Shown: positions 1,388-21,400 of the stretch, in pieces
How positions within the stretch are numbered: position 1 is the first letter of the stretch
How the letters are laid out: every line of letters starts with the position of its first letter
Origin: Hymenobacter sp. YC55
Lineage (GTDB): Bacteria > Bacteroidota > Bacteroidia > Cytophagales > Hymenobacteraceae
Assembly (NCBI RefSeq): GCF_029433095.1
Contig: NZ_JARNTX010000001.1
Coordinates: 496,001-560,000 of the forward strand
Direction of reading: 5' to 3'
DNA length: 64,000 bases
Notes under the pieces: model-generated
What the model was told of the DNA's origin: nothing
Seen by the model: only the letters and a program-made list of their open reading frames with translations
The model's database searches: none
Made by a program: the position numbers and the translations under genes

Positions 1388-2557
1388 CTAAGTGGCTGTT
1401 GATGGAAAAAAGTGCTGCCGGTTTCGGACCATGCGGCGCAGCAGGGGGCTGGCGCGGTACCGGTCTTCGTGGTATTCGGCGTAGAGATTATCCAGCGTGT
1501 CGAGCACATCGGCAATGCCTAACTCATCGGCCCAGGCTAGCAAGCCTTTTGGGTAGTTGACGCCTTTGGTCATGGCTAGCTCTAGGTCGTCGCGGGAAGC
1601 TACTTGTAGGGCTAGCGCGTCGGCGGCTTCGTTGATGAGCATGGCCAGCACGCGGTTCACAATTACGTTGCCTAACGCTTCGTCGCGGTTTGGCTCGGGC
1701 TGTATGGTTTCGGGGGCATAATTGTAGAAGCCGCGGCCAGTTTTGCGGCCGTAGTAGCCGGCTTCAAATAGCCGCTTCTGCGTGAAGGAGGGCTTGTAGC
1801 GCGGGTCGTAGAAAAAGGCCGTAAACACTGATTCCGTGACCCGGTAGTTGACGTCGTGGCCGATGAAGTCCATGAGCGTAAACGGCCCCATCCGGAACCC
1901 CCCAAGCTCGGTAAGCGCCCAGTCGATGGTAGCAATATCGGCAAGGCCTTCTTCTAGCATACGAATGGCCTCGCCGTAGTACGGCCGCGCCACCCGATTT
2001 ACGATAAAGCCCGGTGTATCCTTGGCTAGCACGGGCAACTTCCCCCAGCTTTCCACCAGCTTTCGCACTTCCGTTGCCAGTCCTTCCCGCGTCTGAACAG
2101 CCGGAATTACTTCCACCAGCTGCATCAAGGGGGCCGGGTTGAAAAAGTGGATGCCAATAAACCGCTCCGGCTGTTGGCAGGCGGCCGCAGTAGATGTGAT
2201 AGACAAGGACGAGGTATTGCTGGCCAGCACGCACTCCGTAGACACAATGCTTTCTAGCTGTTGAAACAGCTGTTGTTTGACCGTCAAATCTTCCACTACC
2301 GCCTCTATCACCAATTCGCAATCCGCAAACTGCTGTATATCGCCGGTGGGGTGCAGCCGGGCTGTAACCGCTTCGGCGGCGGCAGCGGTGAGCTTACCTT
2401 TCTCGGCTAGCTTGCGCAGGTTTGCCTCAATAGAGCGGCTGGCTTGTTGTAGGGCCTCGGAGTTCTGGTCGAGCAGGCGCACGGTGTGACCGGCCGTGGC
2501 TACCACTTGCGCAATGCCCGCTCCCATGGCGCCGCTGCCGATAATGCCAATAATCAT
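1388..2557 (-). CDS. paaH: 3-hydroxyacyl-CoA dehydrogenase PaaH (3-hydroxyadipyl-CoA dehydrogenase)
   Basis: NAD-dependent oxidation of (S)-3-hydroxyadipyl-CoA to 3-oxoadipyl-CoA in the lower phenylacetate pathway. The 389-residue protein starts MIIGIIGSGAMGAG at the ATG complement of 2555-2557. A longer in-frame extension overlaps paaG, is not protein-like at its N-terminus and was rejected. Residues about 1-185 form the Rossmann domain, with the GxGxMGxG loop and the HFFNPAPLMQLVEV motif. TPGFIVNRVARPYY opens the first of the C-terminal helical domains, and a second 3HCDH C-terminal copy follows (about 290-389). It overlaps paaG by ATGA, which indicates translational coupling. General fatty acid 3-hydroxyacyl-CoA dehydrogenases are similar, so the PaaH name rests largely on context. 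Confidence 0.88.
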   Translation of the reverse strand: MIIGIIGSGAMGAGIAQVVATAGHTVRLLDQNSEALQQASRSIEANLRKLAEKGKLTAAAAEAVTARLHPTGDIQQFADCELVIEAVVEDLTVKQQLFQQLESIVSTECVLASNTSSLSITSTAAACQQPERFIGIHFFNPAPLMQLVEVIPAVQTREGLATEVRKLVESWGKLPVLAKDTPGFIVNRVARPYYGEAIRMLEEGLADIATIDWALTELGGFRMGPFTLMDFIGHDVNYRVTESVFTAFFYDPRYKPSFTQKRLFEAGYYGRKTGRGFYNYAPETIQPEPNRDEALGNVIVNRVLAMLINEAADALALQVASRDDLELAMTKGVNYPKGLLAWADELGIADVLDTLDNLYAEYHEDRYRASPLLRRMVRNRQHFFPSTAT

Positions 2558-3339
2558 TCGCCCGTGAAGGTTGGTTTGCGTTTCTCCATGAAGGCCGACA
2601 CACCTTCGCGGTAGTCGGCGGTGTGGCCGGCGCGGTACTGGTAGTCGGCCTCGCAACGTAGCTGCTGCTCCAGGCTATTGTGAAACGAGGCGTTGAGTAG
2701 CTGTTTGGTGTAGGCCAGGCCTTTGGTGGGCATAGTGGCTAGCTTGACCACCAGCGCCACTACTTCGTTGTCGAAGTTTTCATCTGGAATTGCCTTGTAG
2801 ATCATGCCCATCTGCTCGGCTTCCGAGGCGCTTACTTTGTCGCCAGTCATCATTAGGGCTGTGGCACGCTGCATGCCAACAAGGCGGGGCAGAAAATACG
2901 TGCCGCCACTGTCGGGAATCAACCCAATCTTGCTGAATGCCTGAATAAACGAGGCCGATTCCTTTGCCACCACTAGGTCACAGGCCAGCGCGATGTTGGC
3001 ACCCGCACCGGCCGCTACGCCGTTCACGGCGGCTACCACCGGCTTGTCCAAGTCCCGAATCAATTGCACAATGGGGTTGTAGTGCTGCTCTACAATTTCC
3101 GAGACGCCTGGACTGCTGGGGTCGGTGATTTCTGCTAAGTCCTGCCCAGCGCAAAAGGCCTTGCCGGTACCCGTCAGCAACACCGCACGCACCGTAGCAT
3201 CTTCCTTGCAGGCGCGCAAACGCTCTTGCAAAGCCAAAGCCAGCGGCTTGTTGATGCTGTTGAACACGTCGGGGCGGTTGAGCCGGATGGTGGCAATACC
3301 AGCTTCCAGAGAGAAAATCAGGGAATCAGAATCGAGCAT
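2554..3339 (-). CDS. paaG: 1,2-epoxyphenylacetyl-CoA isomerase PaaG (crotonase family)
   Basis: Isomerises ring-1,2-epoxyphenylacetyl-CoA to oxepin-CoA, and in E. coli also moves a double bond later in the pathway. It has 261 residues, the usual family length. Crotonase features are visible: FCAGQDLAE near residue 65, the oxyanion-hole segment NGVAAGAGANIALACD near 110, and SKIGLIPDSGGTYFLPR near 135 with the PaaG-type Asp in PDSGG. The C-terminal ADYREGVSAFMEKRKP segment closely matches E. coli PaaG as recalled. Its last bases overlap paaH by ATGA. A repeat-bearing gap of about 270 bp separates it from paaD upstream. Confidence 0.92.
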   Translation of the reverse strand: MLDSDSLIFSLEAGIATIRLNRPDVFNSINKPLALALQERLRACKEDATVRAVLLTGTGKAFCAGQDLAEITDPSSPGVSEIVEQHYNPIVQLIRDLDKPVVAAVNGVAAGAGANIALACDLVVAKESASFIQAFSKIGLIPDSGGTYFLPRLVGMQRATALMMTGDKVSASEAEQMGMIYKAIPDENFDNEVVALVVKLATMPTKGLAYTKQLLNASFHNSLEQQLRCEADYQYRAGHTADYREGVSAFMEKRKPTFTGE

Positions 3340-3608: not shown

Positions 3609-4118
3609 TCAGCTATGGCATTTGAAGTAGTCGAACGGCTCGTGGCAGTCGTCGCACTGGTAGAAGGCTTTGCAGGCCGTAGAGCCGAACTGACTAACTA
3701 GGTGCGTGTGCTCGGACTTGCAAAGCGGGCAGCGCACGGCGGTATCCTGACCGAATAGGTTGAGCAAGTGACCAGTCGCTGTGCCATCTACGGGCGGAGC
3801 AATGCCATACGCTTCCAGCTTTTCGCGCCCGGCTTGCGACATCCAATCGGTGGTCCAGGCTGGGCTGAGTTGGTTGTGGATGGTGACTTGAGTAATACCC
3901 TCGGCCAGGAGCCGCAGCCGAATATCGGTGGCAATGGTGTTCATGGCCGGGCACCCCGAATAGGTAGGCGTGATAGTCACCGTCACGGCTTGGTCCTGCA
4001 CCTGCACCTTGCGGACTATGCCTAAGTCCAGGATGCTGAGCACGGGCACTTCGGGGTCCGATACCTCTTCCAGCAGCTGCCATACACGTTCCTCAGTAGG
4101 CGCCTGCGTTGCTACCAT
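3609..4118 (-). CDS. paaD: Phenylacetyl-CoA epoxidase accessory subunit PaaD
   Basis: Small subunit of the 1,2-phenylacetyl-CoA epoxidase complex, thought to help assemble or mature its metal centres. It has 169 residues. The N-terminal part is an MIP18/DUF59 fold (EEVSDPEVPVLSILDLGIV, then TPTYSGCPAMNTIATDI). The C-terminus is a zinc-ribbon-like segment with CPLC (near residue 135) and CDDC (near 155) plus flanking His/Cys. It overlaps paaC by 7 bp, which indicates tight coupling. The DUF59 domain is shared with Fe-S assembly factors, but the Cys-rich tail and the neighbours make PaaD the clear choice. Confidence 0.92.
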   Translation of the reverse strand: MVATQAPTEERVWQLLEEVSDPEVPVLSILDLGIVRKVQVQDQAVTVTITPTYSGCPAMNTIATDIRLRLLAEGITQVTIHNQLSPAWTTDWMSQAGREKLEAYGIAPPVDGTATGHLLNLFGQDTAVRCPLCKSEHTHLVSQFGSTACKAFYQCDDCHEPFDYFKCHS

Positions 4119-4915
4119 GTCATACCCGGATAAGTGCGCTGCATGTACTGTAGCTCAGTTAGAATGTAGCCCAAGTGCTCGGAATGGCGGCCTTCTTTTC
4201 CGCCGCGCTGCATGTATGTTTCTTGCGGAACCGGTACGGTCGCTTCGGCAAACACTTTGGCTACATGCGCAGTCATAGCCTCCTGAAACCTCGTGTATTC
4301 AGGAATAATGCCTAGGGTTTGTAAGGCTTGCTCAGTGGCTGTGGGCGTGGTTAGCTCGCCGGAGTAGCGCCACAAGTTAGCCAAGGCTTTGTTGAGGCGC
4401 TGGCGGCTTTCGTCGGTTCCGTCGCCTAGCCGGATTATCCATTCCGAGCTCCATTTGAGGTGGTAGGCAGCCTCTTTCCACGATTTTTCGGCAATAGCTG
4501 CCAACCGCTCATCGGAGCTGGTTTGTAGCTGTTGCAGGAAGTGAAAGTGAAAAGTGTCGAACAGAAACTGCCGCACTACGGTAGCGGCAAAGTCGCCGTT
4601 GGGTTGTTCTACCAGCAGTGGGTTGCGGTACTCGGTGGCAACGCGCAAGAAGGCGAGGTCATCTTCGGTGCGGCCTTTGCCTTCCAGTTCGGCAGCGTAT
4701 TGGTAGAAGCTACGAGTTTCGCCTAGCAAGTCCAACGCAATATTCGCCATAGCCAAATCTTGCTCCAGAATCGGCCCGTGCCCGCACCATTCAGATAGGC
4801 GGTGGCCCAGAATCAGGCTTGTATCGGCTAATTGCAGCACATACTGAAACAGGTGTTGGCGCACCTCGGGCGAGTAGGCACTCAACGCAGTGGTGTCGGA
4901 TGGGGCGACTTGCAT
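4112..4915 (-). CDS. paaC: Phenylacetyl-CoA epoxidase structural subunit PaaC
   Basis: Non-catalytic ferritin-like partner of PaaA in the epoxidase heterooligomer. It has 267 residues, slightly longer than E. coli PaaC. The helical segments DTSLILGHRLSEWCGHGP (near residue 33) and NIALDLLGETRSFYQYAAE (near 58) and the WSSEWIIRLGDGT region are typical of the family. It lies 11 bp after paaB and overlaps paaD by 7 bp, so paaB-C-D form one tightly packed translational group. Confidence 0.92.
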   Translation of the reverse strand: MQVAPSDTTALSAYSPEVRQHLFQYVLQLADTSLILGHRLSEWCGHGPILEQDLAMANIALDLLGETRSFYQYAAELEGKGRTEDDLAFLRVATEYRNPLLVEQPNGDFAATVVRQFLFDTFHFHFLQQLQTSSDERLAAIAEKSWKEAAYHLKWSSEWIIRLGDGTDESRQRLNKALANLWRYSGELTTPTATEQALQTLGIIPEYTRFQEAMTAHVAKVFAEATVPVPQETYMQRGGKEGRHSEHLGYILTELQYMQRTYPGMTW

Positions 4916-4926
4916 GCGGAAGGGAG

Positions 4927-5214
4927 TTACATGTGCTTGATGGAATCGGGCACTTCGTAGAACGTGGGGTGCCGATACACTTTGTCGTTGGCCGGGTCGA
5001 AGAAGGCGGCGGAGTCATCGGGGTTAGAGGCGTGCACGTGCACCGACTCTACCACCCAAATGCTGACGCCTTCCATCCGGCGGGTATACACGTCGCGGGC
5101 ATTTTGAATAGCCATGGTGGCATCCGCAGCGTGTAAGCTGCCCACATGCTTATGGTCGAGGCCTTGCTTGCTGCGGATAAAAACCTCCCACAGCGGCCAT
5201 TCTGCTTGATTCAT
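4927..5214 (-). CDS. paaB: Phenylacetyl-CoA epoxidase subunit PaaB
   Basis: Small structural subunit that bridges PaaAC units of the epoxidase. It has 95 residues, the normal length. WPLWEVFIRSKQGLDHKHVG at the N-terminus is the conserved family signature, followed by HAADATMAIQNARDVYTRR and a C-terminal YRHPTFYEVPDSIKHM. The start is the ATG complement of 5212-5214. The gap to paaA upstream contains a compound repeat element, so transcription from paaA must cross a strong hairpin. Confidence 0.93.
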   Translation of the reverse strand: MNQAEWPLWEVFIRSKQGLDHKHVGSLHAADATMAIQNARDVYTRRMEGVSIWVVESVHVHASNPDDSAAFFDPANDKVYRHPTFYEVPDSIKHM

Positions 5215-6449: not shown

Positions 6450-6466
6450 GCACTAGCAACAAGTAT

Positions 6467-6486
6467 TAACTAACATTCGTTAGCTA
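6467..6486. promoter_or_regulatory. Candidate TetR operator upstream of paaA
   Basis: An imperfect 20-bp palindrome, TAACTAAC-ATTC-GTTAGCTA. Its core CTAA-N6-TTAG (6470-6483) is shared with the palindrome in front of the tetR gene at 8371-8404. It lies directly downstream of the -7 box for paaA, where a bound repressor would block transcription. Confidence 0.6.
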
Positions 6487-6492
6487 AAAGTA
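6485..6492 (-). promoter_or_regulatory. Candidate -7 box of the paaA promoter
   Basis: On the minus strand this reads TACTTTTA, one base from the Bacteroidetes TAnnTTTG consensus. It lies about 36 bp upstream of the paaA start and abuts the palindrome at 6467-6486. A convincing -33 box was not seen. Confidence 0.4.
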
Positions 6493-6529
6493 AAGAAATT
6501 TCTGTTGGTTCATCGAAGTGAGGCTCCGG

Positions 6530-7609
6530 TTACTGATCAAAATCAACGGTTACCTTCTCTGACATGGGCCGGGCCTGGCAGGTTAATACGTAGCCTTTGG
6601 CCACTTCCGTATCGGATAGCGAGTAATTCACGTCCATTTCCACCTTGCCATCCACGATGCGGGCGCGGCAAGTGCTGCACATACCGTTTTTGCAGGAATA
6701 AGGGGCATCGGCACCAGTTTCCAGCATAGCATCCAGAATGGTGTTGCCGTAGTACGACATCTGAAGCAAGTGGGTGCTGCCGTCGAGCTTCACCGCGACT
6801 TGGCTTTTCTTATCGTCCTCACCAACGGGGTGCACTTTTGTAGGGCCAGCTTGTTGCTTGTTGCTACCCGCCGAGGTGAACATCTCGAAGTGTATCTTTT
6901 CGGGCGCTACCCCGGCAGAGGTTAGAGCGGTACGTACGCCGTTTATCATCTCCTCCGGGCCGCAAATAAAGCACTCATCAATCTGACTAGGCGGCAAAAT
7001 CTTGTCGAGGAACTGCCGGGTTTTCGCTTCGTCGATGCGGCCGAAAAGCAAGTCGGTGTCGCCTTGCTCCCGGCTGAGAATGTGGTAGACGCTCAGGCGC
7101 CGCAGAAACTTGTTTTTGAGGGCTTCAATGGCCTCCTTGAAAATGATGGAGTTGCGGCCCCGGTTGCCGTAAATAAGCGTGACCTGGCTATTTGGCTCGG
7201 TTAGCAGAATGGTTTTCACAATGGAAAACACCGGCGTGATACCGCTGCCGGCTGCAAAAGCCACGTACCGCTTCGCGTTGGCCGGGTGCAGTTCTGTATA
7301 GAAGCGGCCAGCCGGCGGCATCACCTCCAACTCTTCCCCCACGCGCAAGTTTTCTACGGCCAACGACGAAAACCGCCCATCGGGCACCTTCTTAATAGCC
7401 ACTTGCCACTCGCCATCTAGCGGGCTGCTGCATATAGAATAGGAGCGGCGGAGTTCTTCCCCGTTGTGCTCCCGCCGAAACGTCAAATACTGCCCCTGCG
7501 TGAATTTGAACGTGTCCTGCAATTCGGCGGGCACGTCCAGAGACAGGGTAACACAATCGGGCGTTTCCCGCTGGATACGCTTGATTTTGACTTTATGAAA
7601 ACGACTCAT
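6530..7609 (-). CDS. paaE: Phenylacetyl-CoA epoxidase reductase PaaE
   Basis: NAD(P)H-dependent reductase that feeds electrons to the PaaA di-iron site. It has 359 residues. The N-terminal ferredoxin-reductase FAD domain carries RRSYSICSSP near residue 55. The nucleotide-binding domain has FAAGSGITPVFSIVKTIL near 118 and CFICGPEEMI near 212. A C-terminal plant-type 2Fe-2S ferredoxin domain has the ligand pattern CKNGMCSTC near 305 and a final Cys near 345. It sits between tetR and paaA, all in one direction. The order E-A-B-C-D differs from the A-B-C-D-E order of enterobacteria. Confidence 0.93.
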   Translation of the reverse strand: MSRFHKVKIKRIQRETPDCVTLSLDVPAELQDTFKFTQGQYLTFRREHNGEELRRSYSICSSPLDGEWQVAIKKVPDGRFSSLAVENLRVGEELEVMPPAGRFYTELHPANAKRYVAFAAGSGITPVFSIVKTILLTEPNSQVTLIYGNRGRNSIIFKEAIEALKNKFLRRLSVYHILSREQGDTDLLFGRIDEAKTRQFLDKILPPSQIDECFICGPEEMINGVRTALTSAGVAPEKIHFEMFTSAGSNKQQAGPTKVHPVGEDDKKSQVAVKLDGSTHLLQMSYYGNTILDAMLETGADAPYSCKNGMCSTCRARIVDGKVEMDVNYSLSDTEVAKGYVLTCQARPMSEKVTVDFDQ

Positions 7610-7631
7610 GAGTTGTGAATTACCAGTAACT

Positions 7632-7681
7632 AGCTGAGAGCTATGAGTTATTAATTATCGACTCACATGCAACTCTCAGCT
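7632..7681. other. Hairpin-forming sequence between tetR and paaE
   Basis: A perfect 9-bp inverted repeat, AGCTGAGAG (7632-7640) and CTCTCAGCT (7673-7681), in the 83-bp gap between the two genes. It has no T tract. It could be an mRNA stability element or a weak attenuator; no function can be assigned. Confidence 0.35.
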
Positions 7682-7692
7682 GGCAGCTGATC

Positions 7693-8274
7693 TTATTTTG
7701 CTAAGCCATTCAGCAGAATGGTCATGATATTTCGCTCTAAATCTTCGGCGGAGATGCCCCGACCGGGCCGGTACCACAGTTCCACCCAGCGCACTGCCGA
7801 CAGAATGGTGAACAGGGCCACTGATACATTGACGGGCTGTAGCTCACCGGCCGCAATGCCTTGCTCAATTAGGGCCGCAAAGCCTTGCTCATACCGTTTG
7901 CGGGCCTCTTTGAATTGGATGAGTTTGTCGCCGGTAAGGTATTTCCAGTCGTTGTTGGCCACCGATACGGCAGCTCCATCTTCTATCATCAAGTACACGT
8001 GGCGCCGGAGCAGCGTTTCCACCTTCTTCGTGTAGGAAGCGTCCATCTTTTCCACCTCGGCTAGTTGCGAGATGTACGTATTGGACACGTAGAAGCAGAT
8101 GCTTTCCAATATCTCGTCTTTCGACTTGATGTGGTTGTACATGCTGGCGGCTTCCATGCCTACCTCGCCGCCCAAGTCGCGCATGGAAGTACCGGCAAAG
8201 CCTTTTTCTTTGAAAAGCTTTGCTGCCTCGTCTAGTATGCGTTGGCGCTGATTGACTTTACTCCGTTTGGCCAT
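7693..8274 (-). CDS. TetR-family regulator, probable repressor of the paa genes
   Basis: 193-residue transcription factor. The N-terminal helix-turn-helix is clear: RQRILDEAAKLFKEKGFAGTS (about 9-29), then MRDLGGEVGMEAASMYNHIKSKDEIL. The rest is a variable helical ligand domain. The start MAKRSKVNQR is chosen over a longer frame whose first 30 residues are not conserved-looking and overlap the promoter region. It is first in the paa unit, and the palindrome upstream of it (8371-8404) shares its core with one at the paaA promoter. This suggests autoregulation plus control of paa. The inducer is probably phenylacetyl-CoA, by analogy with PaaR/PaaX systems; this is inference. Confidence 0.85.
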   Translation of the reverse strand: MAKRSKVNQRQRILDEAAKLFKEKGFAGTSMRDLGGEVGMEAASMYNHIKSKDEILESICFYVSNTYISQLAEVEKMDASYTKKVETLLRRHVYLMIEDGAAVSVANNDWKYLTGDKLIQFKEARKRYEQGFAALIEQGIAAGELQPVNVSVALFTILSAVRWVELWYRPGRGISAEDLERNIMTILLNGLAK

Positions 8275-8361
8275 GAATAACTGATGCTGGCTATTGCTCG
8301 TGGTTTTCCGCTGATGCTTTACGTACATCACCCTGAAAAAGAATATCAGCGGGCGGCCCAG

Positions 8362-8369
8362 CAAAACTA
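8362..8369 (-). promoter_or_regulatory. Candidate -7 box of the tetR promoter
   Basis: TAGTTTTG on the minus strand matches TAnnTTTG. It lies about 88 bp upstream of the chosen tetR start and immediately downstream of the palindrome at 8371-8404. Confidence 0.45.
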
Positions 8370-8370
8370 G

Positions 8371-8404
8371 CCTTTAAAAACTAATACCTGTTAGTTTTTA
8401 AAGG
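8371..8404. promoter_or_regulatory. Candidate TetR operator at the tetR promoter
   Basis: A perfect 14-bp inverted repeat, CCTTTAAAAACTAA (8371-8384) and TTAGTTTTTAAAGG (8391-8404), around the 6-bp spacer TACCTG. It lies just upstream of a -7 box, so binding would cover the -33 region of tetR. The CTAA-N6-TTAG core recurs at paaA (6470-6483). Confidence 0.65.
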
Positions 8405-8430: not shown

Positions 8431-8470
8431 CCAAAAAGCCCCGCCAGAACCAAGTTCCGGCGGGGCCTCT
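8431..8470 (-). terminator. Rho-independent terminator after the GlcD-like gene
   Basis: Stem GCCCCGCC/GGCGGGGC (8438-8445 and 8459-8466), extended by an inner GAAC/GTTC pair, followed on the minus strand by CTTTTTGG. It ends the gene at 8495-9916 and insulates it from tetR. Confidence 0.8.
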
Positions 8471-10725: not shown

Positions 10726-10760
10726 TATAGCGCTTGAAAGCACGATTGTTTTTTTTTTAC

Positions 10761-13700
10761 ATGAAACAGTCGAGTTTACACTACCACCTCTTTTTGCTGT
10801 TGCTTCTGCTGTCGGCGCGCGTTGGTTGGAGCCAAGGTGCCACAACATCGGCTATGAATGGCATCATCACCGACCAGAGTGGCGCAGGCCTGCCGGGAGC
10901 TACCGTCATTGCGGTTCACATACCAACCAACACTCAATATATAGCGCCCACCAATGCGGAAGGGCGCTACAACATCCAGAACATGCGAGTGGGTGGCCCT
11001 TACACGGTGCGGGCTACTTTCATCGGGTATCAGGATGCTACCCAGCAAGGCGTATTTCTGACCTTGGGTCAAAACCTGCGCCTCGATATTCGCTTGACCG
11101 ACGCCACACAGCAACTCAACGAAGTAGTTGTGACAGGTCGCCCCGACCCTGTGATTAGCGCAGGGCGTACGGGGGCCGCTACCACTGTGCAACGCGAGCA
11201 GATAGAGCGCCTGCCTACGCTCAACCGCAGCTTGCAGGACTTCATCCGGGTGTCGCCGCAAGCGACTGGCGGGGGAAGCAGTTCCCTCGGCGGCGCCAAC
11301 AACCGCTACAACAACATCACCATTGACGGGGCCGTGAACAACGACGTGTTCGGGCTGTCTGGTACCGGCACGCCAGGTGGTCAAGCCGGTACCGGACCGA
11401 TTTCGCTGGATGCCATTCAGGAACTCCAGATTGTACTTGCACCGTACGATGTGACCCTTGGCAACTTTACTGGGGGCGGCATCAACGCCGTGACGCGCTC
11501 CGGGACCAACGACCTGTCGGCGTCGATTTACGGTTTCGGCCGCAACCAGAACATTGTGGGCAAAAGTGTAACCGAGCCCCGCACTAAAGCGGCCGAGTTT
11601 TACAACTACCAAACCGGCTTTCGGGTGGGTGGCCCCGTTGTGAAGGATAAGGTATTCTTCTTCTTGAATGGGGAAATCAACCGGCGCAATGAGCCGCTTT
11701 CTTTTGTGCCTGGCACCTCCACTTCGCGGCTGGACGTGAACGTTATCAACCAGATTGCCAGCACCGCTCTGGAGCGCTACGGCTACGAAATAGGCGAGTA
11801 CGGCGACATCACCCGACGCACCGAAAGCAACCGCATCTTCGGCCGCCTGGACTTCAACTTGTCCGACAAACATCAATTAGTGGTGCGCCATAACTACGTA
11901 GATGCCTTTGACGATAATATCACGCGTACGTCAACGGCCCTGCGCTTCGGCAGCAACGCCTACGTATTCAATAACAAAACCAACAGCAGCGTTGTCGAGC
12001 TAAACAGCAACCTAGGTACATTTTCCAATAAGCTGTTGCTAAGCTACACCCGCATCCGTGACACACGTGATGTGCCCGGTTCGCTGTTCCCGACATTTGA
12101 AATCAACGAAGCTGGCAACCGTTACACCTTTGGTACCGAACGTAGCTCGGGCTTCAACGAGCTTGATCAGGACATTTTCGAACTCACTGACAACGTGACC
12201 AAGTCGTTTGGTAAGCACAACGTCACAGTAGGTACTCACAACGAGCTGTTCAAGTTCCGCAACCTGTTTATCAACAACGGGGTCGGGTACTACCAGTTTC
12301 CGTCGCTGAGTGCGTTTCTCAATAGCCAGCCCAACCGGATTCAGGCGGCCTATGCTACTGCCAACAATGGCGAAGCCAAGTTTAGCGCCATGCAGTTTGG
12401 TGTGTATGCGCAGGATGAATACTCACCCCTTGAGAACCTGCGCCTTACGCTAGGTGTGCGTCTGGACGTACCCTTCTTCTTTGATAGACCGGTATATAAT
12501 GCAGGAGTTACCGAGCAATTCGGCAGCAACATTAGCACGCGGAATGTGCCCAACGGGCAGCTGCTGTGGGCTCCTCGCCTAGGTTTCAATTGGGACGTTA
12601 ATAACGACGCCAAAGTGCAGGTGCGTGGGGGTACGGGTATTTTCACAGGCCGCGTGCCCTTTGTTTGGGTTTCCAATAGCTTCACCAACAATGGCCTGAT
12701 TCAAGGCGCAGTTGACGCTAGTCCAATGGGCACGGGCGCCAACACCGTCTATCCACCGATTGTCACCGATCCTTCGCGCATTCCAACCGTCTTTACTACG
12801 GCTCCTTACCGCGCCGTCGGAACGGCCGAAATCAACGTGTTGGGTAAAGACTTTAAACTGCCCCAGGTATGGCGCACCAACGTAGCAGTTGACTTCCGCC
12901 TCCCCGGCGAGATTGTAGCTACGCTGGAAGGTATTTTCTCTAAAACAGTGAATGATATTTATTATCAAAACATCAACCTAACTGCTCCCGTGGATCGTCT
13001 TGCCGGCCCGGACCAGCGGCCGGTTTATGCTAGTACCACAGCCGGGCGCCGAATCAATCAAAACTACACCAACGTGTTGTTGCTTAACAACACCAACGAG
13101 GGTTACCGCTACAACGCCACGGCGCAGTTGCAAAAGCAGTTCACCAACGGCCTGAACACAACGGTAGCGTATACCTATGGTAGGGCAAGGGAGATAAATA
13201 GTGGTACTAGTAGCACCGCCTTATCGAACTGGCAGTTCAACCAAGTGCAATCCGACCCGAACAATCCCGAGCTAGGCTATTCAATAAATGACCGCCGGCA
13301 CCGCATCCTAGCTACTGGGGGCTACACCATCCGGTATGCAAACAACAAAACTGCTACCAACATCTCGATTATCTATGAAGGGCTGGCTGGCTCGCCCATT
13401 GCGTATGTCTACGGTCAGGGTGGCCGTGATGTGAACAACGACGGCGCATTCTCGAACGACCTGATTTATATTCCTCGCAACGCCCGCGACCCCAACGAAA
13501 TTGCTCTGGTAACTAGTGGTTCAACGGATACGCGCACTATAGCCCAGATACAAGATCAGCTAGAAGCCTTCATTCAAAACGACCCCTACCTGCGTACTCA
13601 CCGCGGGCAATACGCTGAGCGCTTCGCCGCGCGCACCCCCTGGACGCACCAAGTGGACATTCGTGTAGCGCAGGATTTCAACTTTGTAGCTGGTGGCAAG

Positions 13701-13952
13701 AAAAACACCATCCAAGTAAGCTTCGACGTTCAGAACGTCGGCAACCTGCTCAACAATAACTGGGGCAACCAGTATTCGGTAGCTAATAACGCCATCGAAC
13801 TACTTCGCCCGGAGACTATCACCGGCCCTAACGTCCGCCCCACTTTCTCTTTCCCGGCCACATTTGCCGCCAATAATAACCGCGGCTACGATATAGCGCC
13901 TTTTAATTCGCGCTGGCAAGGACAGCTAGGTGTGCGCTACACCTTCAACTAA
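10761..13952 (+). CDS. Oar-like TonB-dependent outer-membrane receptor 1
   Basis: Outer-membrane beta-barrel of 1063 residues. A signal peptide (about 1-25, ending GWSQG) precedes a carboxypeptidase-regulatory-like beta-sandwich (about 30-115: ITDQSGAGLPGATV, NAEGRYNIQNMRVGGPY). A plug domain (about 125-245) follows, with REQIERLPTLNRSLQDF and GGGINAVTRSGTND, and then the barrel, which ends in RYTFN, a typical C-terminal aromatic beta-signal. The ATG is preferred over an in-frame TTG at 10734. There is no SusD partner, as is usual for Oar-type receptors. Oar of Myxococcus has been linked to protease secretion; the role here is unknown. It is paralogous to the genes at 14173 and 18498 and ends at a strong terminator. 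Confidence 0.88.
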   Translation: MKQSSLHYHLFLLLLLLSARVGWSQGATTSAMNGIITDQSGAGLPGATVIAVHIPTNTQYIAPTNAEGRYNIQNMRVGGPYTVRATFIGYQDATQQGVFLTLGQNLRLDIRLTDATQQLNEVVVTGRPDPVISAGRTGAATTVQREQIERLPTLNRSLQDFIRVSPQATGGGSSSLGGANNRYNNITIDGAVNNDVFGLSGTGTPGGQAGTGPISLDAIQELQIVLAPYDVTLGNFTGGGINAVTRSGTNDLSASIYGFGRNQNIVGKSVTEPRTKAAEFYNYQTGFRVGGPVVKDKVFFFLNGEINRRNEPLSFVPGTSTSRLDVNVINQIASTALERYGYEIGEYGDITRRTESNRIFGRLDFNLSDKHQLVVRHNYVDAFDDNITRTSTALRFGSNAYVFNNKTNSSVVELNSNLGTFSNKLLLSYTRIRDTRDVPGSLFPTFEINEAGNRYTFGTERSSGFNELDQDIFELTDNVTKSFGKHNVTVGTHNELFKFRNLFINNGVGYYQFPSLSAFLNSQPNRIQAAYATANNGEAKFSAMQFGVYAQDEYSPLENLRLTLGVRLDVPFFFDRPVYNAGVTEQFGSNISTRNVPNGQLLWAPRLGFNWDVNNDAKVQVRGGTGIFTGRVPFVWVSNSFTNNGLIQGAVDASPMGTGANTVYPPIVTDPSRIPTVFTTAPYRAVGTAEINVLGKDFKLPQVWRTNVAVDFRLPGEIVATLEGIFSKTVNDIYYQNINLTAPVDRLAGPDQRPVYASTTAGRRINQNYTNVLLLNNTNEGYRYNATAQLQKQFTNGLNTTVAYTYGRAREINSGTSSTALSNWQFNQVQSDPNNPELGYSINDRRHRILATGGYTIRYANNKTATNISIIYEGLAGSPIAYVYGQGGRDVNNDGAFSNDLIYIPRNARDPNEIALVTSGSTDTRTIAQIQDQLEAFIQNDPYLRTHRGQYAERFAARTPWTHQVDIRVAQDFNFVAGGKKNTIQVSFDVQNVGNLLNNNWGNQYSVANNAIELLRPETITGPNVRPTFSFPATFAANNNRGYDIAPFNSRWQGQLGVRYTFN

Positions 13953-13977
13953 GGTACTAATCCTGTATTTAGTGGGA

Positions 13978-14006
13978 GCGGACGAAGAAGATCTTCGTCC
14001 GCTTTT
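13978..14006 (+). terminator. Terminator after receptor 1
   Basis: Perfect 11-bp stem GCGGACGAAGA/TCTTCGTCCGC with an AGA loop, followed by TTTTC. Confidence 0.85.
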
Positions 14007-14137
14007 CATTTATCGAGGATCTTGCTAGGTAAAAGCAATATGCAACAGATAGTTATAAATATTATTTTTTGCATATGTAACGGCCCTAATCAAAATTAAT
14101 AATTACCTAAGAGTGTGTTTTAAACTGACGGGGTAGG

Positions 14138-14145
14138 TACTTTTG
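14138..14145 (+). promoter_or_regulatory. -7 box of the second TonB-dependent receptor
   Basis: TACTTTTG matches TAnnTTTG, 28 bp before the ATG at 14173. Confidence 0.5.
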
Positions 14146-14172
14146 TGCCCAGTTTTCATCAATCACTCTTTC

Positions 14173-17100
14173 ATGAAAAACACGTATTACAGACATTTTC
14201 TCTTCCTACTATTGATGCTGCTGTCGGCACACATCGGTTGGAGCCAAGGCACCACCACGGCAGCCATGAACGGTGTGATTACTGACAAGGAGGGTTCGGG
14301 CTTACCTGGCGCGACAGTTATTGCTGTGCACACACCTACCAACACACAGTACGTAGCGCCGACTAACTCAGAAGGTCGCTTCAACATTCCGAACATGCGG
14401 GTAGGTGGTCCCTACACCGTTCGGGTAACATTTGTTGGCTACCAGGACATTAGCCGGGAAGGCATTTTCCTGAGCTTGGGTCAGAACCTACGCTTGGACC
14501 TTAATCTAAGCGAAACCACAACACAACTGGCAGGCGTAACCGTAACAGCTACCCAGGACCCAGTAATTAATGCTGGTCGGACTGGTGCTGCTACTACCGT
14601 ACGTCGTGAGCAGATCGAGCGTCTGCCTACTATCTCTCGTAGCTTCCAAGATTTCACTCGCCTCACCCCACAAGCCAACGGCAATTCGTTGAGCGGCCGT
14701 AGTGGCCGTTTTAATAATGTGCAAATTGATGGTGCTTCTAACAATGACTTGTTTGGTTTGGGTAGCTCGGGTGCGCCAGGTGGCCAGGCCGGTACCAATC
14801 CTATCTCACTGGATGCTATTCAGGAATTCCAAGTGGTGCTTGCTCCTTACGACGTACGCCAAGGACGCTTCAGCGGTGGCGGTATCAATGCCGTAACACG
14901 TTCCGGTACCAACGACTTCTCGGGTTCAGCTTTCGCTTTTGGCCGCAACCAAAACACCGCTGGCAAAAGTCCAACACCTGACGCAGCTGGCAACAGAACT
15001 AAGCTCGACAAGTTCAACGATTACCAGGCTGGTTTCCGTTTGGGCGGCCCAATTATTAAGGACAAGCTGTTCTTCTTCGTAAACGGCGAAATCACTCGTC
15101 GTACTGCTCCTTTACTGTTCAACACGGGAAGCGCCGCTGACATTACATCGAGCACCAGTTCTAGCTTGGTTCGCTTCGTAAGCACAGAAGATTTGCAGCG
15201 CATTTCTGATAAACTAGCTGAATACGGCTACGATGCGGGCGAATTTGGTGAAATCAATGCTGAGACCCGTAGCAACAAGGCTTTTGCTCGTTTAGACTGG
15301 AACATCAGCCAAAACCACCAACTTACGCTGCGCCACAACCTCGTAGATGCTACGGATGATAACATCACGCGCAGCTTGACGAACTTTCGCTTCGGCAACA
15401 ACGCTTACCAATTCCTGAGTAATACTAACTCAACAGTTTTGGAGTTGAAAAGCCGCTTTGGCAGCCGCTACGCAAACAACTTACTTGTTGGATACTCGCG
15501 TATCCGTGACAGCCGCTCACCAGTAGGCGACCTGTTCCCTTCTATTGAAATTACGGCTGGTAATGCTTCAATCTTCGCTGGTTCGGAATTCAGCTCGGTA
15601 GCTAACCGTCTTGACCAAGATATCCTCGAAATAAACGATAACTTCAATATTTTCGCTGGAAAACACGCTATTACGATTGGTACTAACAACGAAATATTTC
15701 GTTTTGACAACCTGTTCGTGCAGAGCACTCAAGGACGTTATAACTTCCCAAGTATTCAATCTTTCCTAGATAATAACGTAACCGCCTCGGGCTTTCGTTA
15801 TCGCCAAAACTTCGCGCTGCCCGGTGGCAAGCCGACTGCTAAATTTGGTGCTGCTCAGTTCGGTCTATACGCTCAGGATGAATACAGCATCACAGACAAT
15901 TTCCGTCTGACTGGTGGCATTCGGTTCGATATGCCGATGTACTTCGATGATCCATCCTATAACTCGAAGGTTGATGCCACGTTCGCAACAGAGTCAACTG
16001 CTGGTCCGGCATACGATGTAAAAACTAATCGTCTACCTAAATCACGCGTTCAGTTTTCACCCCGCTTAGGATTCAACTGGGACGTGCAGAAAAACCAAGC
16101 TCTGCAGTTGCGTGGTGGCGTAGGCATCTTCACTGGGCGTCCAGCTTATGTATGGATTTCCAATCAATATGGTAACACAGGTATTGACTTCGCTACATAC
16201 GATACAGGTACCTTCGGTACACCTGTGCCAGCTAGTGGTCTGGGTCTGACCCAGGATTATACTACACTGCGCGATGTAATCAGTAGCACACCAGCTACTG
16301 CTGCTCGTGGTAGCATAGCTGTAACGGATAAAGATTTCCGTAACCCACAGTTGGTGCGCTCTAACTTGGCAGTCGACTACCGCCTGCCGCTAGGTTTCGT
16401 GGCTACACTGGAAGGTATCTACTCGAAGACGCTCAACGACGTGCTACCGCAGGATATTAACCTGACCAACCCAACAGGAACGTTAGCAGGTGACGGTCGC
16501 CCTGTGTACCCTTCGAACCGTCTGCGTAACAGCACCGACTTCAACAATGTAATTCTGCTCACTAACACTAGCAAAGGCCACCAGTACAGTATCACAGGTG
16601 AACTTAAGAATCAGGTAACTCGGGATTTGTTCGCGTCGGCAGCTTACACTTATGGCCAATCGCGTGACCTGTACTCAGGATCTAGCTCAACCGCTGTTTC
16701 GATTTGGGAATTCAACCCTCATGCTGGCAATCCGAACGACTTGACCATGTCGTGGTCGAATTTTGATCTGCGCCACCGTGTAGTTGGTTCGTTGTCATAT
16801 CGTAAAGAGTATGCTAACCACTTTGCTACGACGTTTTCTGCCATCTATGTTGGTCAGTCAGGCGCACCTTACTCGTATACTTATTATGGTGGCGACGTAA
16901 ACGGCGATGGTGGCAGCTTCACTAGCAATTCCAACGATTTGATTTATGTTCCACGTACCCGCGATGAAATTGTGCTGGTAACCGATGGTCCAAATGACCG
17001 TCGCACGCTAGATCAGCAGTGGAACGAATTGAATGCATTCATCGAAAACGACGAATACCTAAGTGAACATCGGGGTGAGTACGCTGCCCGTAACGGCGGC

Positions 17101-17418
17101 CGTACTCCCTGGCAGCACCGCATCGACGTTCGTTTATTGCAAGACATCTTTACGAAAGTCGGCAGCAAAAACCACACTATTCAGTTGTCGGTTGACGTCA
17201 TTAACTTCGGTAACCTGCTAAGCAAAGACTGGGGCCGCGACTATTTTGTATCGAACCAGAATTTTGGCTTGCTGCGTTACCAGGGCCTAGAAGGTACCGG
17301 TGGCCGTCCGACGTTTAGCTTTGGATCTGGCACGTCTGCTTCACCAACAGTTGGTTATCAAATTAGCCAGTTGTCTTCACGTTGGCAGGCTCAGTTCGGG
17401 GTACGCTACTCGTTCTAA
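14173..17418 (+). CDS. Oar-like TonB-dependent outer-membrane receptor 2
   Basis: 1081 residues with the same layout as receptor 1: signal peptide ending GWSQG, carboxypeptidase-regulatory-like domain, plug (RREQIERLPTISRSFQDF, GGGINAVTRSGTND) and a long barrel ending RYSF. The ATG at 14173 is chosen over an in-frame GTG at 14143 that lies within the -7 box. Arg is mostly CGT, Gly GGT and Ala GCT, unlike the GC-ending codons of receptor 1; this pattern fits a very highly expressed gene. No terminator separates it from the DUF4397 lipoprotein 29 bp downstream, so the two are probably co-transcribed. Confidence 0.88.
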   Translation: MKNTYYRHFLFLLLMLLSAHIGWSQGTTTAAMNGVITDKEGSGLPGATVIAVHTPTNTQYVAPTNSEGRFNIPNMRVGGPYTVRVTFVGYQDISREGIFLSLGQNLRLDLNLSETTTQLAGVTVTATQDPVINAGRTGAATTVRREQIERLPTISRSFQDFTRLTPQANGNSLSGRSGRFNNVQIDGASNNDLFGLGSSGAPGGQAGTNPISLDAIQEFQVVLAPYDVRQGRFSGGGINAVTRSGTNDFSGSAFAFGRNQNTAGKSPTPDAAGNRTKLDKFNDYQAGFRLGGPIIKDKLFFFVNGEITRRTAPLLFNTGSAADITSSTSSSLVRFVSTEDLQRISDKLAEYGYDAGEFGEINAETRSNKAFARLDWNISQNHQLTLRHNLVDATDDNITRSLTNFRFGNNAYQFLSNTNSTVLELKSRFGSRYANNLLVGYSRIRDSRSPVGDLFPSIEITAGNASIFAGSEFSSVANRLDQDILEINDNFNIFAGKHAITIGTNNEIFRFDNLFVQSTQGRYNFPSIQSFLDNNVTASGFRYRQNFALPGGKPTAKFGAAQFGLYAQDEYSITDNFRLTGGIRFDMPMYFDDPSYNSKVDATFATESTAGPAYDVKTNRLPKSRVQFSPRLGFNWDVQKNQALQLRGGVGIFTGRPAYVWISNQYGNTGIDFATYDTGTFGTPVPASGLGLTQDYTTLRDVISSTPATAARGSIAVTDKDFRNPQLVRSNLAVDYRLPLGFVATLEGIYSKTLNDVLPQDINLTNPTGTLAGDGRPVYPSNRLRNSTDFNNVILLTNTSKGHQYSITGELKNQVTRDLFASAAYTYGQSRDLYSGSSSTAVSIWEFNPHAGNPNDLTMSWSNFDLRHRVVGSLSYRKEYANHFATTFSAIYVGQSGAPYSYTYYGGDVNGDGGSFTSNSNDLIYVPRTRDEIVLVTDGPNDRRTLDQQWNELNAFIENDEYLSEHRGEYAARNGGRTPWQHRIDVRLLQDIFTKVGSKNHTIQLSVDVINFGNLLSKDWGRDYFVSNQNFGLLRYQGLEGTGGRPTFSFGSGTSASPTVGYQISQLSSRWQAQFGVRYSF

Positions 17419-17447
17419 GTCAGTAGAAATTGCTAAAGCATCATTCC

Positions 17448-18251
17448 ATGAAATTCTCTTTTTCTTCGACTTTCACCAAGTTAACACTTGCTGCCGCTGT
17501 AGCTACTTCAGTAGCTAGTTGCGACGATCCAGAATATCCCACTCCCACACCGGCTACAGCTCCTTCCACCTCGCAGGGTCGATATCTGGTAGTTAATGCT
17601 GCCCCAAACTCAGGTAGCGGTCAACTCGTCAGCATTGACAATGTGAATGTGACTACCCCCCCAGCTGCAGTTCCTTACCTGAGTACTTCAGCAGCTTACA
17701 CTAGCATTTCGGCTGGACCACGGCTATTGCTGTTTTCTACGCCTACTAACCTTAACAATCAGTTGATTCCGGCTCGTGCTACCTTTGGTACCAACACAAC
17801 CAGCACGGTATTCCTTACTGATTTGCCTACACGCGCTGCATCAGGAACTGATCTTGGCGGTATTCGTAGCGTAGTTTTATCTGACAACCTAGCAGCTCCA
17901 GCGGCAGGTAAGGCTAAAATCCGTTTTGTGAATTTGGCGACTTCAGGCACCTACGGCATCTTCATCACGGGTGCGTCGCCAGCAACTCCACTCTTCCCTG
18001 TTGCTCCTACACGTTCCTCGCGAGGAACTACCACCACTATAAACGGTAGTACGTTCAACTTCGCTAATTTTATCGAGGTAGATGCTCGCACGTATGCATT
18101 AGATGTACGCTCCTCGGCTACAGCTGCACCGGTAACTGGTACGCAACAGGCTTTCACCTTTGCTGCTGGCAAGATCTATACTTTGTATGTGCGTGGGGTA
18201 GCAGGCAATTCTGCTACAGCATTAGGAATTTCTACAGTACTACATAACTAA
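17448..18251 (+). CDS. DUF4397-domain lipoprotein
   Basis: 267-residue protein of unknown function. A signal peptide ends in lipobox VASC at about residues 25-28, followed by a Pro/Thr-rich linker (DDPEYPTPTPATAPST). Beta-rich segments fit DUF4397: RYLVVNAAPNSGSGQLVSI, a middle KIRFVNLATSGTYGIF and a C-terminal KIYTLYVRGVAG. The ATG at 17448 replaces an in-frame TTG at 17430. It shares the optimised codon use of receptor 2 and its transcript, so a surface or periplasmic lipoprotein partner of that receptor is plausible but unproven. Confidence 0.78.
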   Translation: MKFSFSSTFTKLTLAAAVATSVASCDDPEYPTPTPATAPSTSQGRYLVVNAAPNSGSGQLVSIDNVNVTTPPAAVPYLSTSAAYTSISAGPRLLLFSTPTNLNNQLIPARATFGTNTTSTVFLTDLPTRAASGTDLGGIRSVVLSDNLAAPAAGKAKIRFVNLATSGTYGIFITGASPATPLFPVAPTRSSRGTTTTINGSTFNFANFIEVDARTYALDVRSSATAAPVTGTQQAFTFAAGKIYTLYVRGVAGNSATALGISTVLHN

Positions 18252-18270
18252 TAGAGCCTGATTAGTATCG

Positions 18271-18307
18271 GAAAAAGCGAGCAGAGATATTCTCTGCTCG
18301 CTTTTTT
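18271..18307 (+). terminator. Terminator after the DUF4397 gene
   Basis: 16-bp stem AAAAAGCGAGCAGAGA/TCTCTGCTCGCTTTTT with a TAT loop, followed by further T residues. Confidence 0.88.
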
Positions 18308-18462
18308 TATGCCTTTTTGTTTGTTGCCTGCTATAATTCTGTGTGTTCTTATGAGCAGTGTAATATCTGTGCTTGTCTAGAAATGTATAGCCGAGGTGCA
18401 TATCGGCTAAATAAAATTTCTTAATAACATTTTAATAACATGGGATGAGTTGCGCTGATAAG

Positions 18463-18470
18463 TACTTTTG
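18463..18470 (+). promoter_or_regulatory. -7 box of the third TonB-dependent receptor
   Basis: TACTTTTG matches TAnnTTTG, 28 bp before the ATG at 18498. This is the same box and spacing as for receptor 2, so the two promoters are probably duplicates. Confidence 0.5.
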
Positions 18471-18497
18471 TAGCTGGTTTTCACCTATAACTTTTTT

Positions 18498-21400
18498 ATG
18501 AGAAGCACCATTTACCGTTCTCTTCTTCTACTGCTTCTAGCAGTCCTGTCGATACAGCAAGGCTGGTCGCAAGGCACTACTACGGCAGCCATGAGCGGCG
18601 TGATTACTGACAAGGAAGGAGCTGGCTTGCCTGGCGCTACTATCATTGCGGTACACACGCCTACTAACACACAGTATGTAGCACCTACTAACTCAGAAGG
18701 GCGTTACAACATCCAGAACATGCGGGTAGGTGGCCCTTACACCATCCGCATCACCTTTGTAGGATACAAGGAAGCTACGCGAGAAGGTATCTTTTTGACT
18801 CTTGGCCAGAACTTGCGCTTGGATATCAACTTGAGCGAGGCTACCACTGAACTGGCTGGTGTAACAGTTTCAGGCCGCCAGGACCCAGTAATCAATGCCG
18901 GTCGTACGGGTGCTGCCACAACGGTGCAGCGCGAGCAAATTGAGCGTCTGCCCACACTGAACCGTTCGTTGAATGATTTCACTCGCCTCACGCCTCAAGC
19001 CAATGGACAGAGCTTTGGTGGCCGGAACAGTGGTTTCAACAACATTACTGTTGACGGTGCCATCTTTAACAATGCCTTCGGTTTATCGTCAACTGTAGGT
19101 GGCCAAGCTAGTGCACAACCTATTTCGCTAGACGCCATCGACCAGATCCAAGTAAGCATTGCTCCTTTCGACGTACGTCAGGGCTCGTTTACGGGAGCTG
19201 GCATTAACGTAGTAACTCGCTCTGGCACCAACAAATTCTCGGGTTCTATCTATGGCTTCTACCGCGACCAAAATCTGGTGGGTAGCAAGGTAGGTGACTT
19301 CAAGCAGGATTATCCTGATTTCAAACTCAAGAACTACGGCTTCCGTGTTGGCGGCCCTATCATTAAAGACAAATTGTTCTTCTTCGTTAATGCCGAACAA
19401 GAACGTCGTACGGACCCACCGACTGGCAACTTCACCGCAAACCGCGAAACCACTACTCCGCCAGCTGGCTCGCAAACGTCGCAGGCTTCAGCCCGCGACT
19501 TGGATGCCCTGAGTTCTTTCTTACAGGAGCAATACGGCTACAACCCCGGTTCTTACGAGAGCTTCAAACTGCGTTCGAACAGCGACAAGGCGACCATTAA
19601 AGTTGACTGGAACATCAACCAGAACAACCGCTTTAATATCAAGTACAACTACTTGAAGTCATACGCCGACATTCCACCAAGCACGTCAGGTGCTATTGCT
19701 GGTCAACGTTCGCAGTCGCAGTTTGGCCTCCCTTTCTCGTCGTCTTATTACGTAATCAACAACAACCTTAACTCGTTGATTGCGGAATTAAACAGCACAC
19801 TGGGTGGGGGTAAATACTCTAATAACCTAACGGCAGGTTACTCAGCTTTTCGCGATTTTCGCGAGAGTCTAGGAGGCAATCCGTTTCCGCTGGTTGATAT
19901 TGGAAATTCAGTTGGTCGAAGCACGACAACAACTGCTTTAGCTGGTATTACTGCAACGAACTCGCTGACTTCGTTCGGTTATGAACCCTTTACGGCATTC
20001 AACATTCTAAACTCGGATGTATATCAAATTGGTGACAACTTCACTGCCTACTTAGGCAAGCACAACGTGACAGTTGGTACCTACAACGAGTTTTATAAGT
20101 TCGAAAACGGCTTCGCGCCGAACTATTACGGCAACTACTCTTTCAACTCGCTGGAGGATTTCTACGCATCGGCTGGTTACAATTATGACCGCGCTAGTGC
20201 TAGCGTGACGCCACTAGCTGCTGGTGCTGTTCGGCCTGGTCCTGCTCGCTACAACCTGCAGTACACTACGCCTGGTCAGACAGCTATTGTAGGATTGAAG
20301 GCTGCACAGCTTGGCTTATATGCTCAAGATGAATGGTCGCTTCTTAATAACCTGAAAGTAATTTACGGTCTGCGTGCCGACCTGCCGTTCCTCACCTCAG
20401 ATCTACTACAAAACACCAACGCTGCAAGCTTAACTTTCCGCGATGGAGTGCAACTCAACACGGGCGGCGTACCTAAGAAATCGGTACTGTTCTCGCCCCG
20501 GGTTGGTTTCAACTGGGATGTGAACGATGACAAGCAGACGCAAGTGCGAGGTGGTTCGGGTATTTTCACCGGACGTATTCCTTTCGTGTGGCTTTCCAAC
20601 CAGGCCAGCAACAACGGCTTGCAGTTCGGTTCGTTTAGCACCTCGGGTTCGGTGGCTACTACTAATGCTACTACAGGCGTAGTTTCTCCTAACGCTTCCA
20701 TCTATCCATTCAGCCCCGATGTTGATGCGTATCGTCCTCAGAATGCAACGGCTAACACGTCTTACAACTTAGCTGTAACTGATACAGACTTCAAATTCCC
20801 GCAAGTATGGCGGACCAACATTGCCGTTGACCAGGTATTGCCTGGAGGTGTTATTGCCACGTTGGAAGCCTTCTACACCAAGGATCTTAACGCCATATAT
20901 CACCAGAACGTGAACTTGCCCGGTAGTGAAAGCGCACCATTTGCTCGCGCAAACGGTGCCGACAACCGGGAGATTTTTTACACATTGGGTGCAGCGCAAG
21001 CAGCTCCGAATGCTGATCTGCGAGTAGCAACACGCAACTATCAGATCTACGGTTCAGTCCCTGCAGCTCAAGGAGGCAACACAGCTGCTCGCCCAAATAT
21101 TAGCGATGCTATCTTGATGACGAACACCAAGAAAGGATATTCTTACGCTGTAACCGGACAGCTGCAGAAGAGCTTTGCTAGTGGTTTCTATTTGAGTGCA
21201 GCTTATACCTACTCGGATGCTCGTTCGGTAAACGATGGTGGTTCGATTGCTCAGTCAATCTGGCGCGACCGTTCTATTTCGGGCGACCCGAATGCGGATG
21301 TACTAAGCTATTCGCAGTTCTTGCAGCAGCACCGTGTAATTGCATCGGGTTCTTATCGTAAGGAGTACCTCGGCCACTTAGGTACCACTATTTCGTTGTT

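Follow-up and report, generated by a model that had tools for sequence, protein, structure and literature searches.

How is phenylacetate breakdown controlled in Hymenobacter sp. YC55, and through which DNA sites? The window analysed here, a stretch of 64,000 nucleotides from the 7.59 Mb genome of this strain, contains a gene for a TetR-family regulator, the phenylacetate (paa) genes that follow it, and two related palindromes, one between a GlcD-type oxidase gene (glcD) and tetR and the other between paaE and paaA. A sequence-only reading had taken these palindromes as operators at tetR and paaA, with autoregulation and an internal paaA promoter. Comparison with related loci supports this proposal, and we put the probability that the window TetR is a PaaR-type repressor acting at both palindromes, including its own promoter and an internal paaA promoter, at roughly 0.86. 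The palindromes are very probably operators of a TetR-type repressor, given that many related bacteria have this palindrome at the corresponding genes, and predicted operators were found at promoters of paa genes and of the tetR gene itself. The order tetR-paaE-paaABCD is shared by the window and many relatives; in others, tetR and paaA lie apart.

The palindrome before tetR (8371-8404) reads CCTTTAAAAACTAA-TACCTG-TTAGTTTTTAAAGG, with perfect 14-bp arms around a centre of 6 nt, while that before paaA (6467-6486) reads TAACTAAC-ATTC-GTTAGCTA and is imperfect by a single mismatched arm pair. Direct reading of the letters thus bears out the perfect and the imperfect inverted repeat first described, as it does their common CTAA-N6-TTAG, which has no third occurrence in the window. 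The TAnnTTTG-like boxes said to adjoin the palindromes, one upstream and one downstream, are also present: TAGTTTTG lies 3' of the tetR site and TACTTTTA touches the 5' end of the paaA site. The shared motif itself needed revision. The common palindrome is real, but the consensus is better given as C-N-AAC-N4-GTT-N-G, extended at paaA to TTAACTAAC-N4-GTTAGTTAA. The long arms of the tetR palindrome are incidental; they are not kept in the genome G118, whose TetR is 97% identical and whose site is palindromic only in AACTAA-N6-TTAGTT.

Conservation was followed in 80 fetched loci of Hymenobacter, comprising those of 75 TetR orthologues (65-100% identity, from 73 of 120 genomes) and of 5 of 46 more distant homologues. 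These loci contain 48 paaA genes with >60% identity. CTAAC-N4-GTTAG was present upstream of 45 of them, with the 22-bp site exactly 16 nt from the ATG in 43; in ten shuffles of the same upstream regions, no dyad occurred in more than 3 of the 48. Two loci (L062, L063) have a weaker and shifted copy. With duplicates and the three loci in which no paaA site was found (L082, L085, L096) removed, 39 distinct paaA upstream regions were aligned. Little variation is seen between about -50 and -9, a segment that includes a nearly invariant TACnTTTA box, and the sequence farther upstream is unconserved. In three genomes (G021, G050, G112) paaA and tetR are on separate contigs and the 16-nt spacing at paaA is kept, thus the site travels with paaA. 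A scan of named species genomes for the exact 22-bp site returned 47 stretches, 24 of them in Hymenobacter, and all 24 show it at 16 nt upstream of paaA. When up to two mismatches were allowed, the extended palindrome turned up in 55 of the 120 Hymenobacter genomes, the tabulated counts adding up to 62 sites and 12 controls. A TTGTT just 3' of the paaA operator, ahead of the start codon (window 6458-6462, - strand), is also nearly invariant in the 39 distinct regions.

At the regulator gene, a perfect CNAAC-N4-GTTNG was found in 34 of the 75 orthologous tetR upstream regions (250 bp), compared with 0.3% of letter-shuffled regions. Loci with paaK directly before tetR account for 24 of the 41 misses, and in these the site stands before paaK in 24/24 and before tetR in 0/24. 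The remaining 56 of the 80 loci have a perfect site within 300 bp before tetR in 44 cases. Judged from these positions, the predicted operator heads the unit with tetR in it, be it led by paaK or by tetR. Because tetR had guided the choice of loci, each count was set against that of the reversed pattern in this same DNA. The 80 loci (1.147 Mb) hold 125 cores against 27 reversed controls, and 116 of these cores lie before tetR (47), paaK (24) or paaA (45). One further core was assigned to another, unprinted query gene and eight lie elsewhere, although two of the eight (L088, L089) just precede a paaA that starts at the end of the locus. The longer pattern AACNAAC-N4-GTTNGTT gave 129 sites over the 120 genomes against 38 controls; among the 75 of these sites that were listed, 57 precede paaA (32), paaK (17) or tetR (8).

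Some Hymenobacter species contain a divergent paa operon lineage (PaaA 51-55% identical). The four loci fetched from it (L109-L112; PaaA 53-55% and TetR 34-36% identical) have their own tetR directly before paaA, and in all four the tetR promoter holds a perfect core inside the spacer of TTTG-N20-TAnnTTTG, the sites of L110 and L111 reading CTAACGAACGTTAG.

Beyond the genus, 100 of the 296 genomes in a sample of the phylum had a paaA at E <= 1e-60, and the loci of 40 of these 100, most of them taken from high in the list, were fetched. A tetR was counted as nearby when a homologue lay within the fetched stretch; tetR elsewhere in those genomes was not searched for. The core was present within 400 bp 5' of paaA, paaE or tetR in all 13 loci with a nearby tetR, and near a paa gene in 4 of the 27 without, one of these being weak and >300 bp away. 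Taken together, the 40 loci hold 32 cores and 17 controls. The contrast is partly confounded with class, being 12/12 against 4/8 within the class of the window and 1/1 against 0/19 outside it. In two Saprospira plasmids the core precedes both paaA and a thiamine-pyrophosphate (TPP) enzyme gene that follows tetR, and the third match in each plasmid is inside a thioesterase gene. The helix-turn-helix regions of the TetR proteins have A-x-S-x-Y-x-H-I-x-S-K in common (15 sequences, and a further 11, with I nearly invariant).

The sites were also compared with operators of known phenylacetate regulators. The paa genes of Thermus thermophilus HB8 are repressed by the TetR protein PaaR (TTHA0973), which has a KD of about 1 nM for CNAACGNNCGTTNG and is released by phenylacetyl-CoA (excerpts of PMC6651687 and PMC9493321). 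Of the 10 fixed positions of this operator, 9 are matched by the paaA site of the window, CTAACGAATGTTAG, and 7 by its tetR site, whilst the CTAACGAACGTTAG of L110 and L111 matches all 10. In the excerpted descriptions the Thermus regulator resembles the window TetR in being TetR-type and in having the same CNAAC half-sites and spacing, and its gene leads an operon with paaA. The window differs in having a second, internal operator at paaA, and in vitro selection with the Thermus protein gave AACnAACGTTnGTT, with a tighter spacing than the window sites (PMC6651687, in excerpt). By analogy, the window TetR would work like Thermus PaaR, the likeness being one of operator, family and gene context.

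No Thermus record was among the best 60 of 174 plasmid records in each of the PaaA searches, and the plasmid TetR search returned from Thermus only a pTT27-type TetR (10 records), 29% identical to the window protein. We take this pTT27 locus to be TTHB023, that is PfmR, and PDB chain 3vpr, the closest chain to the window TetR, is presumably PfmR as well. T. thermophilus PfmR, according to excerpts of PMC7022988, is likewise TetR-type and linked to phenylacetic and fatty acid metabolism, but its operator, TACCGACCGNTNGGTN, differs: on inspection, neither window palindrome has the TACCGACCG half-site. The available accounts of Burkholderia cenocepacia PaaR (BCAL0210) describe a TetR-type paa repressor whose operator, a near-perfect inverted repeat, is situated between -35 and -10. 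It is similar to the window TetR in family, targets and type of operator, and differs in the half-site of that operator (ACCGACCGGTCGGTT) and in gene position, downstream of paaABCDE. PaaX of E. coli and Pseudomonas, in the parts of its literature consulted, regulates paa genes with the same inducer as PaaR but is of the GntR-type family. A domain search of the window protein gave TetR domains only (PF00440, 46.8 bits with a cut-off of 24; PF17932, 85.3 bits with a cut-off of 26.4), so that it is not a GntR-type (PaaX) protein.

The kind of regulation proposed here is therefore already known (PaaR-type). The open-access literature matches listed, including PMC13186573 and PMC3840689, gave in the parts available no characterised phenylacetate regulator from Bacteroidota and no described operator for one, subscription papers being mostly outside the search; the full phenylacetate pathway is mentioned in two Hymenobacter strains (excerpt of PMC13186573). 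For Bacteroidota, the locus offers a precise model of the operators of phenylacetate breakdown together with a small predicted regulon, and suggests that one operator half-site has been kept over a large evolutionary distance.

The position of the sites relative to promoter elements indicates how repression might operate. The flavobacterial sigma-A -7 box is TAnnTTTG at -12 to -5 (PMC9723704, in excerpt). On the 3' side, 35 of 45 distinct tetR sites (1.3 expected from shuffles) and 15 of 24 paaK sites (1.4 expected) have a TAnnTTT[GA] within 30 nt; on the 5' side, all 43 distinct paaA sites have one (2.7 expected). These counts are not independent because the sequences are related. A TTG at a spacing of 19-21 nt from the box gave 18 matches at tetR and 11 at paaK. 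A -7 box downstream of the paaA site (TAAnCTTTG) was considered and rejected; no normally spaced TAnnTTT[GA] occurs within 30 nt 3' of any of the 43 distinct sites.

In the proposed model, a TetR dimer would bind each palindrome through a pair of C-N-AAC half-sites in inverted orientation, 4 bp apart. Transcription of tetR would start near 8357 (- strand); relative to this start the operator core would span about -37 to -24, covering the -33 region on the 5' side of the -7 box. For the internal paaA promoter the start would fall near 6480 (- strand). There the core would extend from about -3 to +11, and the operator would cover the start itself and run into the edge of the -7 box. Because of this placement over promoter elements, both positions would suit steric repression. 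The bound repressor would keep tetR-paaE and paaABCD-G-H off until an inducer, most likely phenylacetyl-CoA, released it. The paaA promoter, with its conserved control block of ~42 bp, is a candidate inducible promoter for use in these bacteria. The features of the locus are collected in Table 1.

Table 1. Predicted control elements and genes of the paa locus, in window coordinates
Feature	Position	Strand	Remarks
tetR operator (predicted)	8371..8404		core CTAATACCTGTTAG at 8381-8394
-7 box of proposed tetR promoter, TAGTTTTG	8362..8369	-	11 nt 3' of operator core
paaA operator (predicted)	6466..6487		core CTAACATTCGTTAG at 6470-6483, 16 nt from paaA ATG
-7-type box of proposed internal paaA promoter, TACTTTTA	6485..6492	-	overlaps operator edge
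GlcD-type FAD oxidase / 2-hydroxyacid oxidase (glcD)	9916-8495	-	upstream of tetR
TetR-family regulator, proposed PaaR	7693..8274	-	TetR_N and TetR_C_24 domains; paa neighbourhood
paaE	6530..7609	-	first structural gene after tetR; TIGR02160 above cut-off
paaA	5487..6449	-	first gene behind internal operator; TIGR02156 above cut-off
paaB	4927..5214	-	TIGR02157 above cut-off
paaC	4112..4915	-	TIGR02158 above cut-off
paaD	3609..4118	-	TIGR02159 above cut-off
paaG-like enoyl-CoA hydratase/isomerase	2554..3339	-	best NCBIfam TIGR02280, 321 bits, under 345-bit cut-off
paaH-like 3-hydroxyacyl-CoA dehydrogenase	1388..2557	-	NF006124 above cut-off; TIGR02279 (PaaH) below its cut-off; start placed at internal ATG from inspection of the open reading frame (ORF)

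Several results weigh against a PaaR-type repressor acting at both sites. The core of the window tetR site is not perfect, matching 7 of the 8 fixed positions of CNAAC-N4-GTTNG. The window locus is one of the 12, among the 56 without a leading paaK, that have no perfect tetR site within 300 bp; ten of the 12, including the window and its two nearest relatives, have a 7-of-8 match, a score that ~8% of shuffled regions also reach. Three of the 48 paaA loci have no paaA site, 18 of the 75 listed AACNAAC-N4-GTTNGTT sites (of 129) lie elsewhere than before paaA, paaK or tetR, and the contrast between loci with and without tetR in the phylum is affected by class as described above. The window tetR promoter has no clear -33 TTG, and no conserved -33 was seen for the paaA box in the 39 distinct upstream regions. 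Motif frequency in the source genome does not favour the sites either. CTAAC-N4-GTTAG occurs 6 times against 6 controls in the whole genome, and AACNAAC-N4-GTTNGTT with up to one mismatch 21 times, both window sites included, against 35 controls. A genome-wide search for ACTAA-N6-TTAGT, which the sequence-only reading had put forward as a discriminating test, did not discriminate (5 sites against 4 with the reversed control), so the short motif is as common elsewhere, the outcome that had been named as counting against it. Counts in a single genome say little about a regulator that has two or three targets, and the case for real sites is made by position and by conservation in relatives, not by frequency in one genome.

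These genome counts are what would be expected if the palindromes had arisen by chance in AT-rich intergenic DNA. That explanation is refuted by conservation, such as the 45 of 48 paaA upstream regions with a site and the largely invariant block beside unconserved flanks in 39 distinct sequences, and its probability is practically nil. Another alternative is that the palindromes work at the RNA level, as terminator, attenuator or mRNA-stabilising hairpins, and are not DNA operators. In its favour, their folding is more stable than that of shuffled sequences (-14.4 and -8.0 kcal/mol, each with z about -4.4), the variable second position of the half-sites is complementary in 45/45 paaA sites, and the paaA site would sit in a 5' leader. 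At the other genes, however, this position is non-complementary in 25 of 47 tetR and 18 of 24 paaK sites, which breaks a stem pair and leaves the half-sites intact. The tetR and paaK sites are also mostly 5' of the -7 box, and hence upstream of the predicted transcript, and neither palindrome is directly followed by a U-run. For termination, glcD has a strong hairpin of its own, GC-rich and followed by a T-run at about 8435-8469 on the - strand (-30.2 kcal/mol), which is likely its terminator. On the non-complementary positions, the missing U-run and the location of the sites, the RNA hairpin or terminator reading was rejected as very unlikely.

Somewhat less remote, though still improbable, is that the sites are real but serve another regulator, the local TetR controlling something else. 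The motif is not confined to the regulator of the window, since the stretches fetched around 22 of the 23 exact 22-bp matches outside Hymenobacter contain no paa gene. Three of these, in Methanobrevibacter (L161, L168, L178), lie beside the N-terminus of another TetR-like helix-turn-helix protein (38-41% over ~58 aa), which suggests that a different regulator uses the same operator; the other 19 likewise have no paa gene within the fetched stretch, and the one remaining match, in Winogradskyella (L154), is flanked by a tetR homologue and paaE. The four paa loci that carry the core without a nearby tetR point the same way. The presence of the core in all 13 sampled paa loci of the phylum with a tetR neighbour (12/12 against 4/8 within the class), the site at the head of whichever unit holds tetR, and the agreement with the Thermus PaaR operator argue instead for the window TetR. 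A small but appreciable chance attaches to a more limited departure, in which the operator belongs to this TetR but the effector is not phenylacetyl-CoA (another CoA ester, for example), or the protein also activates. Fatty-acid regulators are among the weaker relatives of the window TetR, and all of its NCBIfam matches are below cut-off. No paaK was found in the source genome by protein search (E <= 1e-60) or with TIGR02155 (E <= 0.001; matched in 10 of 14 control genomes), thus phenylacetyl-CoA would need another route. As far as the excerpted sources go, both TetR-type PaaR proteins with a stated effector, those of Thermus and Burkholderia, respond to phenylacetyl-CoA, and the placement of the sites over promoter elements suits repression.

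Across the 120 Hymenobacter genomes, PaaK was detected at E <= 1e-60 in 40, although 119 have paaA. A GlcD-type 2-hydroxyacid oxidase gene precedes tetR in the window genome and in G118, G116, G112 and G050, and in Saprospira the TPP enzyme gene lies between tetR and paaE, together hinting at a route through phenylpyruvate. A wider scheme, which we offer tentatively and think doubtful as a whole, is that C-N-AAC-N4-GTT-N-G is a phenylacetate operator code of Deinococcota and several Bacteroidota, which moves to the head of the tetR unit and in Hymenobacter has a separate internal copy 16 nt before paaA, and that the source species may sense phenylacetyl-CoA derived from phenylpyruvate or phenyllactate instead of free phenylacetate.

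Three minor observations were made alongside. The 22-bp palindrome occurs in L152, L165, L185, L186, L192 and L194 (Sediminibacterium, Sphingobacteriia) with no paa gene in the fetched stretch. The dyad screen also returned GGCCG-N8-CGGCC in 28 of 59 paaE upstream regions (L035-L114), which may be conserved coding sequence at the tetR end. Farther along the window, at 10734-22049, three large ORFs on the + strand (1072, 1091 and 1183 aa) are mutually similar and, from inspection of their translations, resemble TonB-dependent receptors.

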